Made by a program: the position numbers and the translations under genes. Shown here in pieces: positions 1 through 44,857 of a stretch of 55,398 nucleotides of DNA. The stretch comes from a virus: positions 1-55,398 of IMG/VR virus record IMGVR_UViG_3300032236_000985; one strand, written 5' to 3'. Below the pieces are notes generated by a model. That model was not told the DNA's origin, searched no databases, and saw only the letters and a list, made by a program, of their open reading frames with translations. Every line of letters starts with the position of its first letter. Positions within the stretch are counted from its first letter, which is position 1.

Positions 1-297
1 AAAATCAAAAAATTTAGTACTGGTCAATCGATCACCTTCAAACATTACATTTGATGACGTTTCGCCAACAAATTTGATTGCTTCTGGCATAACTGCCATT
101 GACAATCTATCAGTACCCGCAAATACTTCGCCTTCTTCATATTTCCCGATAATATGAAGATTCAATTCTTCAGAGTATTTTGTATTTACCAATTTAACAG
201 GTTCTTGATCTTCCCAATCGTAAAAATCCATAAAATTACGGAAAATAGTCGTTTTACCAACTCCAGGCTCGCCAATCACGCAAATAATTTTTCTCAT
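1..297 (-). CDS. P-loop kinase, probable 5-hydroxymethyluracil-DNA kinase (partial)
   Basis: Only the first 99 codons are visible; the gene runs off the left edge. The protein opens with a beta strand and a Walker A loop, GEPGVGKTT, at residues 9-17, followed by the segments GTDRLSMAVMP and FEGDRL. Those segments resemble phage P-loop kinases predicted to phosphorylate the hydroxymethyl group of 5-hmU in DNA. It is the third gene of a minus-strand operon, 7 bp after an amino acid:DNA transferase-like gene and downstream of a TET/JBP dioxygenase, which is the main argument for a base-modification role. The P-loop is seen directly; the substrate is inferred. It could instead be a general nucleotide kinase. 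The C-terminal helical part needed to decide lies outside the window. Confidence 0.6.
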   Translation of the reverse strand, partial: MRKIICVIGEPGVGKTTIFRNFMDFYDWEDQEPVKLVNTKYSEELNLHIIGKYEEGEVFAGTDRLSMAVMPEAIKFVGETSSNVMFEGDRLTSTKFFDF

Positions 298-304
298 AAT
301 TATC

Positions 305-1339
305 TCAAAAAAATGAATCAATAGTATTAGTTTTAATGGAAGCTAAAGCTTCGGGTTCGTTTCCTATCCATCCATGACGTAACCACCATTTACATATTTC
401 CGGAGGTATTCCAACTATACCATGCATCTCGCCTAATAAAATTTCAGGATACATTTTTTTCCGTATATCGTAACACTCTTTCCAAAGACTTTCTTTATGC
501 GGAGCAATCAATTCAAATTCTCTAAGATATTTGAGTTGACGATAATGATGATATCCTCCTCCTCGTTTACCTTTGAAACAATTTCTAAAACTACAAATTT
601 TAGTTACGAATAGAGGGACATCGATTTCTTTATCCGGAAATTTATTTTCGTAAATCTCCTTTACCCACAGAATTTTATCATGGAGTAAGTCGGATTCATA
701 TTTCGTTATCTTCTTAGTCTTATCCCACTCATCAGCACGATCATCCATATAAATTATGTTGAACATACCGGAAGTTAAATTATCGCCTTCGTAAAAATTT
801 ATACTTTCATCCGAACGTAATTTTTTACTTAATCTTTCATTTTTATTAAATATCATTAATATTTCGTTAAAAAGATCGCAAGCAAATCTACCGTATTCTG
901 GACAAACTCTTATAGACTTTTGAACATTATCATATACCTCTCTTTCCGTATCCCCAATTGCTATAGTATCGAACCACGAGGATACTGAATTTTCTGTATT
1001 ATTTACAAACCAATTTAACGTTTTCTTTGATCTTTCGTTATAACGCTGCCATTTTCTAGCCGTTCCGTAGACGATTCTATCGTTCCATTGATCAAAAAAC
1101 GAATTGACTTGATTAGAAGTAGGAAGTTTCATATCCCATTCTTCAAAAGCGAATATAGCCGTTAATTCGGAATAAAAATTACCCATAAGGAACGCTAAAA
1201 AAATACATTGGTCTTCCGACAAATTTCTTCTATTAGAATATTCCCAAAAAAACGATTGATGGATCGGAGGAACAAAATTCGCGTATTCTACGAATTTATT
1301 AGCTCTCCAATCCCCTCCTTTATCATTAGGTATAATCAT
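305..1339 (-). CDS. amino acid:DNA transferase-like (aGPT-PPlase clade) hypermodification enzyme
   Basis: 344-residue, largely helical protein. Conserved-looking blocks are RRNLSEDQ (37-44), the YxxLTAIF region (56-63), GRFACDLF (150-157), a TSG-IYMDDRAD stretch (189-203) and a Cys/Arg/Lys-rich CSFRNCFKGKRGGGYHHYRQ block (249-268). This layout recalls the phage family that displaces the phosphate of 5-phosphomethyl-uracil in DNA with an amino acid or amine. Family members act after a 5-hmU DNA kinase, and a kinase gene follows directly on the same strand. The last residues, IDSFF, match the tails of the DNA polymerase and the neighbouring dioxygenase and look like a sliding-clamp-binding peptide. 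The family call rests on remembered motif patterns; which amino acid or amine is added cannot be read. Confidence 0.58.
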   Translation of the reverse strand: MIIPNDKGGDWRANKFVEYANFVPPIHQSFFWEYSNRRNLSEDQCIFLAFLMGNFYSELTAIFAFEEWDMKLPTSNQVNSFFDQWNDRIVYGTARKWQRYNERSKKTLNWFVNNTENSVSSWFDTIAIGDTEREVYDNVQKSIRVCPEYGRFACDLFNEILMIFNKNERLSKKLRSDESINFYEGDNLTSGMFNIIYMDDRADEWDKTKKITKYESDLLHDKILWVKEIYENKFPDKEIDVPLFVTKICSFRNCFKGKRGGGYHHYRQLKYLREFELIAPHKESLWKECYDIRKKMYPEILLGEMHGIVGIPPEICKWWLRHGWIGNEPEALASIKTNTIDSFF

Positions 1340-1344
1340 AATTA

Positions 1345-2694
1345 TTAAAAAAACGCATCTAAAGTAAATGATTTTTGAACGCTTTCTGGATGATACTTAA
1401 TTAGCGCATCCTTTCCTAATTCTTTCTCAAGAAAAGCATACCATTCATCAGAAGTCCACATACCAGGAGATGTTCCATTCCACATTGAACGCCATTCTGG
1501 ATGATCTTTATCAGTTCGCCTAGATTCAACAAAATTAAATCTAGCATCTTCGTATACTTTCTCACCAAGTTCTAGCATTTTTTCTCGAAAATAACAAACA
1601 ACAGAATAACGTTCTGCATCATCTTCCTCAAGAACAATAGGGGTATTTCCATGAATGCCGCCATGATTATTGATCAACAATAGATCGCCGGGACGAACAT
1701 TAACTGCAACCCTAAATTCCGGTAGAACTAGCATACCTCCAGAATATTTCTTACCATTTGTAAGAACAGATAAATTAGAAAACCCTTCATGCAAGTCACC
1801 GGCATCTCTATGCGCCGCAGTCCTAAATGATTTATTTACAGTAATAGTCGTAAATACTGTATCCGGTACATGAAATGCTTGGTCAATTTTTTCTATGCAA
1901 GATTTCTGAAAAGCCCATCGTCTAGGTAAAAGTTTAGAAAAAGCAGCAGATAGTTTTTGTAAAAACGGAAAAGCAAGAGCAAACTTCTCTGGATTCTTTT
2001 CAGTGTAGGAAGTTGCTCTACCATAAGGAATTCTTGGATATCTATCATACCAACCAGCAACTCCTGAATGTACTGCCCCAGCATAATTCGTATTAGAAAT
2101 ATATTTAGATTTTACCAGTTCAGCTTCTACCTCTTGTTCCGAGAAGGTTAATTTCTTAGTATTTTCGACCCAAACATCAAAATCAAACCCATCAGCTTTT
2201 ACTTTACTTGGTAACCAAACAAATCCTCTGGGAGAAGGGATATAGTTTGCATTCGCATAAGTTTCGTAAATATTTGCAACATTGTCTTCATTAAACAAAT
2301 TACCATAAGGGTTTGAAAAATAATCAAGAATAGACATTTGTAAATCAGATACCCAATCCCTATCAGAATCCGTTTCATTTCTAGGACCAGCTGCTAACCC
2401 TCTGTTAAAAGAGATAGAAGCTGCCCCTTTCAATCCTTCTAAGGCATTGAGTTGTTCATCTTCGGTGAAGAAGTTCTTTCGTAGAATAAAAATCACTGTA
2501 TCTTCATCAATACCTTTTGGACAGGTTGTACAATCAGTATCGTCGCAGTCGTTCCTCTCTATAAGACCGCAAGAAGGAGGTCCGAAAAAGTTACAATCTT
2601 CGTCAATAATCGTATCAAAATGACTTTCGTCTAAAAATTGTCCAAGTAAATATTCGCAATTTAATTTTTTATCAGCAACAATTGTTCTAACCAT
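1345..2694 (-). CDS. TET/JBP-family 2-oxoglutarate/Fe(II) dioxygenase
   Basis: 449 residues; first gene of the minus-strand operon. The double-stranded beta-helix core has the iron ligands H295-x-D297 (AHRDAGD) and H348 (GIHGN), and the 2-oxoglutarate-binding arginine R362 (ERYSVV). The GGMLVLPEFRVAVNVRPGDLL block is typical of the JBP/TET family. Known members oxidise thymine (JBP) or 5-methylcytosine (TET, phage TETs) in DNA. No cytosine-5 methyltransferase is visible in the window, and the downstream genes look like a thymidine hypermodification set, so thymine to 5-hmU is the favoured reaction (inference). A Cys cluster (C34, C42, C50, C55, C58) near the N-terminus may bind zinc. The C-terminus LDAFF resembles the polymerase clamp-binding tail. 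Confidence 0.82.
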   Translation of the reverse strand: MVRTIVADKKLNCEYLLGQFLDESHFDTIIDEDCNFFGPPSCGLIERNDCDDTDCTTCPKGIDEDTVIFILRKNFFTEDEQLNALEGLKGAASISFNRGLAAGPRNETDSDRDWVSDLQMSILDYFSNPYGNLFNEDNVANIYETYANANYIPSPRGFVWLPSKVKADGFDFDVWVENTKKLTFSEQEVEAELVKSKYISNTNYAGAVHSGVAGWYDRYPRIPYGRATSYTEKNPEKFALAFPFLQKLSAAFSKLLPRRWAFQKSCIEKIDQAFHVPDTVFTTITVNKSFRTAAHRDAGDLHEGFSNLSVLTNGKKYSGGMLVLPEFRVAVNVRPGDLLLINNHGGIHGNTPIVLEEDDAERYSVVCYFREKMLELGEKVYEDARFNFVESRRTDKDHPEWRSMWNGTSPGMWTSDEWYAFLEKELGKDALIKYHPESVQKSFTLDAFF

Positions 2695-44203: not shown

Positions 44204-44857
44204 ATGAAAGTGACTTTGAAAAGTTGTACTCAAGACGTTGAGGGAAAGCGAAATTTACTTGAGCAAATTGCGTATGTAGCAAGGGTATCGAATCCTTCAA
44301 ATCAAAATAACGATGATACTGCAGAAAATCTAGTCAATTATCTTATTAAACATAATCATTGGTCTCCATTGGAAATGGTTGATGCTACTTTGGAAATTGA
44401 AACGACGAGAGATATTGCTAGGCAGATTCTTAGACATCGTTCTTTCGTGTTTCAAGAATTTAGTCAACGATATGCAGATCCAACTAAAGAACTTGGGTTT
44501 GTTACAAGAGATGCTAGATTACAAGATGAGAAAAACCGTCAAAACAGTATTGATTTTGATGATGATTTTATTAAAGCAGAATGGGAAAATTATCAAAGGT
44601 CAGTATTAAATCGTGCCGCTTCTGCTTATAAATGGGCTATCGAGAACGGAATTGCTAAAGAACAGGCAAGAGTTGTCCTTCCAGAAGGAATTACTGCGTC
44701 TAGAATGTATATGAAAGGTTCTATCCGTTCTTGGATCCACTATATACAAATACGAAGTGGAGTAGAAACGCAGAAAGAACATAGAGAAATTGCTATTGCT
44801 TGTGCTAATGCTCTTGAACCCATTTTCCCAATGATTAAACAATTTACAATGGAATAA
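44204..44857 (+). CDS. thyX: flavin-dependent thymidylate synthase
   Basis: 217 residues with the ThyX signature R77-H-R79 followed by seven residues and S87 (RHRSFVFQEFSQR), plus NHWSPLEMVDATLEIE and LPEGITASRMYMKGSIRSW. It methylates dUMP to dTMP using FAD and NADPH. T4 instead uses Td. It means this phage makes ordinary dTMP, so any 5-hydroxymethyluracil in its DNA would have to arise by oxidation after synthesis. Confidence 0.95.
   Translation: MKVTLKSCTQDVEGKRNLLEQIAYVARVSNPSNQNNDDTAENLVNYLIKHNHWSPLEMVDATLEIETTRDIARQILRHRSFVFQEFSQRYADPTKELGFVTRDARLQDEKNRQNSIDFDDDFIKAEWENYQRSVLNRAASAYKWAIENGIAKEQARVVLPEGITASRMYMKGSIRSWIHYIQIRSGVETQKEHREIAIACANALEPIFPMIKQFTME

Follow-up and report, generated by a model that had tools for sequence, protein, structure and literature searches.

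Three minus-strand genes at the left end of a marine phage contig probably form a post-replicative DNA base-hypermodification module, in which thymine would be converted to 5-hydroxymethyluracil (5-hmU), phosphorylated, and turned into a C-N-linked base; the probability of this reading is put at about 0.65. The contig is an IMG/VR record that represents a genome fragment, and its full length of 55,398 nt is here referred to as the window. Within positions 1-2694, the open reading frames were found as described earlier, in the order TET/JBP 2-oxoglutarate/Fe(II) dioxygenase (1345-2694, minus strand, 449 aa), divergent ADDT/PUGT-like relative of the amino acid:DNA transferases (305-1339, minus strand, 344 aa), and P-loop nucleotide kinase (1-297, minus strand), of which the first 99 residues are present before it is cut by the contig end. 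Since the first two genes are separated by 5 nt and the last two by 7 nt, the arrangement is operon-like, and the observation in the preliminary description was confirmed. Inspection of the sequence placed a divergent spacer (2695-2758) between the TET operon and a plus-strand phage gene at 2759. The exact T4 late-promoter consensus, TATAAATA, is located at 2729 on the plus strand ahead of that gene. No exact T4-type late promoter for the TET operon was found in the spacer, so that early or middle expression of the operon may be possible.

The pathway proposed from the gene families, their linkage, homology, and predicted folds would start from ordinary dTTP, made by the flavin-dependent thymidylate synthase ThyX together with host enzymes, and DNA would be synthesized with thymine. 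The thyX gene (44204-44857, plus strand) was confirmed by TIGR02170 (4.2e-45) and lies between the primase and ribonucleotide reductase genes, where Caulobacter phage Cr30 has a canonical thymidylate synthase (TS; TIGR03284, 337 bits). This position agrees with replication from ordinary thymine nucleotides. The role in dTMP synthesis that had been ascribed to ThyX is supported. With O2 and 2-oxoglutarate, the TET/JBP enzyme would then oxidize the 5-methyl group of thymine, its putative substrate, to give 5-hmU in DNA. The P-loop kinase, as its family and constant linkage suggest, would use ATP to phosphorylate the hydroxymethyl group, yielding 5-PmdU. Finally, the ADDT/PUGT-like protein, judged by its fold and family, would exchange the phosphate for an amine or amino acid, leaving a C-N-linked side chain. 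By analogy with the restriction-resistant DNA of phages M6, ViI, and phiW-14 (PMC6449724), the module would most likely serve resistance to host restriction. If this is true, a phage using the TET-started route would keep its normal dTTP and pick the sites of modification after replication, and its TET, as a thymine hydroxylase acting on DNA, would make a useful tool.

TET-made hydroxymethylpyrimidines were reportedly predicted by Iyer et al. in 2013 as starting points for complex modification. In the thymine hypermodification known from phages, as described for phiW-14 and the M6/ViI group (PMC5977210, PMC6449724), the first step is the formation of 5-hydroxymethyl-dUMP in the nucleotide pool. 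Like the window, phages of this hydroxymethylase route (ViI/Det7, M6/PaMx11, phiW-14) combine an ADDT/PUGT-type transferase with a post-replicative P-loop kinase acting on a hydroxymethyl pyrimidine; in contrast, TET and ThyX are present in the window, no hydroxymethylase was seen in it, and its kinase is of the Ploopntkinase3 rather than the HMUDK or HMUD2 type. The proposal also resembles the JBP1/2 base-J pathway of kinetoplastids, in which TET/JBP makes 5-hmU in DNA and a second enzyme then modifies it, although base J is glucosylated whereas phosphorylation and amine transfer are expected here. For Tonitrus, a TET-like, aGPT-PPlase2, and 5-hmU-kinase set was interpreted in 2025 as a potential system for thymidine hypermodification (PMC11955845); no biochemical demonstration of a TET-started thymine route was found in a literature search. 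The earlier claim of a new entry route was overstated, because many viral contigs carry the module, Tonitrus had been described, and Iyer et al. had reportedly made their prediction. The window thus adds one more case of a variant that had been predicted, and its transferase is unusual.

The dioxygenase matches Pfam Tet_JBP at 5.4e-24 (84.7 bits against a cut-off of 34.9) and PHROG 24024 at 2e-160. The Fe ligands H295, D297, and H348 and the 2-oxoglutarate-binding R362 are correctly placed in the preliminary description, and the HxD...H...R pattern is invariant across 49 aligned TET relatives. Among solved folds, its AlphaFold2 model (pLDDT 90) best resembles TET2 (Z 21.4), NgTet1 (19.2), and CcTet (18.6), with ABH3 lower (14.6), so that a double-stranded beta-helix fold nearest to the TET enzymes is predicted; profile, alignment, and fold all support the family. 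An attempt to read substrate choice from the residue after HxD was dropped, as this residue is D, S, or N in ADDT-linked TETs and D in the TET of phage Melnitz, which is linked to a C5-cytosine methyltransferase (C5-MTase). The TET active-site residues do not decide between thymine and 5-methylcytosine (5mC). Position 300 is Asp in the window, like the NgTet1 residue that reportedly contacts the cytosine amino group, and if anything fits cytosine. In public records, the TET genes of Cr30, DLP_6, and S-CBWM1 are misannotated as 'SNF2 DNA repair protein'.

The 344-aa protein scored 2.0e-4 (21.6 bits) against Pfam ADDT, below the cut-off of 26.2; it is therefore termed a divergent relative rather than a confirmed member, and was given harder tests. 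A leave-one-out profile built from 48 other ADDTs matched it at E 1.9e-14 with the HMMER filters off (default filters drop the protein). As controls, the second-best ORF of the window reached E 6, and none of 500 shuffled sequences scored E<10. Profile-profile comparison with ADDT (hhalign) gave E 2.5e-18 over 278 columns. The solved folds closest to its AlphaFold2 model (pLDDT 83) are 8z2m (Z 15.6, 257 residues aligned, rmsd 3.6) and 8z2n (Z 15.2), both PUGT, the 5-phosphomethyl-dU glycinyltransferase of phage PaMx11, followed by queuosine-salvage DUF2419 (Z 9.7) and DNA glycosylases (Z 8.4). The protein is thus predicted to have a PUGT-like, DNA-glycosylase-type helical fold. A sequence search of the PDB with the protein gave no match, and its relatives there were found by the fold search alone. 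Of the blocks likened earlier to the aGPT-PPlase/amino acid:DNA transferase clade, the family assignment stood by the leave-one-out profile and the fold and fell short at the Pfam cut-off.

No relatives of the 344-aa protein were found in viral contigs, and LysYB1/LysYB2 (LysYB1 being a Lysinibacillus phage) are the only other known sources of its sub-clade; with 39% identity over 333 residues, it is nearer to the LysYB1 ADDT than to any TET-linked ADDT (about 25%). Four residues kept in all or nearly all of the 48 TET-linked ADDTs and in the Det7 ADDT are replaced in it (D94 by A, S187 by N, R189 by T, and E245 by V), so that its activity may differ, judging from these positions. Their loss would agree with a product that carries a phosphomethyl or other group, made by TET (as 5-hmU or 5-hmC) and the kinase beside an inactive 344-aa protein, and SP8 DNA already withstands more restriction enzymes once a 5-hmdU kinase has phosphorylated it (PMC7653180). 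Such an inactive transferase is nevertheless improbable. The LysYB1 homolog shares A94, N187, T189, and V245 and is encoded next to a kinase of the HMUDK type and a gene of the TS family, which points to a conserved sub-clade; moreover, G150, R151, C249, R259, and R293 are retained, and the fold is intact by prediction.

The open reading frame of the kinase opens at TTG 321, with ATG 297 as the likely start. Its N-terminal half matches Pfam Ploopntkinase3 at 1.6e-6 (28.2 bits against a cut-off of 27), a leave-one-out HMM gave E 2.5e-43, and the family motifs are GxPGxGKT (Walker A, GEPGVGKT in the window), G[KR]Y..G..F.GTD, and EGDR. By its sequence, the kinase belongs to the Ploopntkinase3/AAA_18 family and not to the HMUDK/HMUD2 families of known 5-hmdU kinases; HMUDK (PF18748) and HMUD2 (PF18747) are absent among the Pfam families listed for the window kinase and its relatives. 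Profile similarity to two known 5-hmdU kinases is weak (E 2e-4 and 3e-4, probability 46% and 38%; control 0.8). The 5-hmU-kinase-like segments noted before therefore belong to a P-loop kinase, as stated, albeit one outside the known 5-hmdU-kinase families. A PHROG assignment of the window kinase as 'terminase small subunit' was rejected as shared P-loop similarity; the kinase at 17256-17891 of L003 is publicly misannotated as 'terminase small subunit', as is PHROG 800. Among contigs of bacterial and archaeal genomes, a scan for the kinase gave no relative.

A search with the kinase profile yielded 80 viral contigs, in which TET and ADDT were sought with local profiles. Where at least 6 kb was available upstream, TET was present in 32/32 and ADDT in 30/32 contigs (28/28 and 26/28 after de-replication at 80% identity), in a sample that is biased towards linkage, as the kinase profile was built from TET-linked kinases. 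The module genes lie on one strand, and ADDT mostly adjoins the kinase. Complete phages with TET, ADDT, and kinase, all of them cultured, are Cr30, VioletZ, Tonitrus, and Kozie, with Caulobacter, M. smegmatis, and Microbacterium as hosts of Cr30, VioletZ, and Kozie, respectively, while Tonitrus is a Rhodococcus phage. Since VioletZ, Cr30, and Kozie are cultured, thymine hydroxylation by phage TETs is directly testable. The same linkage in divergent phages of several hosts makes it very unlikely that the genes merely share a variable island without functional connection, with TET serving a different pathway such as glycosylation and the kinase being an ordinary nucleotide kinase, and the linkage counts largely refute this. 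What speaks for chance neighbourhood is that DLP_6, C48C1, and S-CBWM1 (L002, L004, L005) carry the same TET family but no ADDT. Their TETs are accompanied by sugar-nucleotide genes or a TAGT glycosyltransferase, a setting that suggests a glycosylation branch.

The operons of Tonitrus and of the mycobacteriophage VioletZ (Coopervirus) resemble that of the window in their TET (PF12851), ADDT (PF18724), and Ploopntkinase3 (PF18751) genes. They differ in a short (~300 aa), divergent TET, which is below the Pfam cut-off for PF12851 in both phages, and in their actinobacterial hosts; in Tonitrus, a ParB-like gene comes first. Cr30 is T4-like and shares a TET of 47% identity, an ADDT (1e-52), and the same kinase family with the window, whereas its genes are spread over 9 kb, its TS is canonical instead of ThyX, an inositol-1-phosphate synthase gene is nearby, and its ADDT is of another sub-clade. 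The relative L008 (55,528 nt) and the window break at the same kinase codon (15197-15493 in L008). Their TETs are 69% and their kinase starts about 95% identical, while their ADDTs are 23% identical and belong to different sub-clades; this is a mosaic island with an assembly break at one shared place.

The base on which the module would act was approached by whole-record scans for PF00145 (C5-MTase) and PF00303 (TS family), with positive controls, in the window, Cr30, VioletZ, Tonitrus, and many contigs. Neither family gave a match in the 55,398-nt fragment, in agreement with the observation that no cytosine methyltransferase or hydroxymethylase is visible; since a fragment does not cover the whole genome, a C5-MTase or hydroxymethylase may lie outside it. 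No C5-MTase was detected in the complete genomes of Cr30, VioletZ, and Tonitrus or in contigs of 98.6 kb and 111.8 kb, and, apart from the canonical TS of Cr30, no TS-family gene in the scanned records with TET, ADDT, and kinase, including complete Tonitrus and VioletZ. Conversely, LysYB1 and Det7 combine ADDT with a kinase from one of the known 5-hmdU families (HMUDK, HMUD2) and with a divergent gene of the TS family, which in LysYB1 is far below the TS cut-offs and keeps the dUMP-type Asn, and tblastn with the window TET found no match in either phage. TET and hydroxymethylase thus appear to be alternatives upstream of one transferase family. As one ADDT sub-type occurs both in a TS-family/HMUDK cluster and in a TET cluster, the same uracil-based intermediate, phosphomethyl-uracil in DNA, is most simply suggested for both.

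A cytosine route, in which a C5-MTase of the host or of the unseen part of the phage genome would supply 5mC, TET would oxidize it to 5-hmC, and kinase and transferase would act on hydroxymethylcytosine, is considered unlikely. Phage TET systems for 5mC hypermodification (Burke et al. 2021) and phage Melnitz share the TET dioxygenase with the window, yet have an adjacent C5-MTase. The characterised phage TETs reportedly act on 5mC (Burke et al. 2021), which counts for this route, and the fragment covers roughly one third of a T4-like genome. Furthermore, a C5-MTase occurs together with TET and this kinase family in complete Melnitz and in L129, so that the kinase by itself does not report the base, and among the scanned contigs bearing all three genes, L134 alone also has a C5-MTase, making it a good test case for the route. 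Against it stand the lack of a C5-MTase in the complete genomes and large contigs tested, the lack of ADDT in the C5-MTase-positive Melnitz and L129, and the position of the LysYB1 ADDT beside HMUDK and the TS-family gene. PUGT, the solved relative of the 344-aa protein, reportedly acts on a 5-phosphomethyl-dU base, which likewise disfavours cytosine. Of the earlier statement that TET creates 5-hmU in DNA, TET as the source of the hydroxymethyl group is likely, and thymine rather than 5mC is the probable base; the TET residues are indecisive here, and Melnitz has TET and this kinase family beside a C5-MTase. With thymine as the favoured substrate, it is fairly probable that phages share a widespread pathway in which TET/JBP makes 5-hmU in finished DNA, followed by phosphorylation and amination, that bypasses the nucleotide pool, and whose transferases have been exchanged between phages of the TET and hydroxymethylase routes.

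Additional genes interrupt the module in several relatives. Glutamine amidotransferase, amidoligase, GNAT, LMW phosphatase, or TAGT genes occur between TET and ADDT in L008, L013, L040, and L034; these are likely to serve donor synthesis or tailoring and vary across relatives. In L009 (8381-9067), an N6/N4-type DNA methylase gene is found at this place. Microbacterium phage Kozie (L142, 1826-2692) has an FAD-dependent DAO-family oxidase between ADDT and kinase, which recalls how M6-like phages tailor glycinyl-thymidine with a flavin enzyme. In L041 (12476-13522) and L056 (1772-2893), ADDT is separated from TET or from the kinase by a protein that belongs to no known family and has an NGSKxRQ motif; in L125 (7857-9992), this protein is fused to ADDT. 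It had no significant database match, and a fold-type II PLP-enzyme reading, based on the appearance of the motif by eye, was set aside; the protein is a possible tailoring enzyme.
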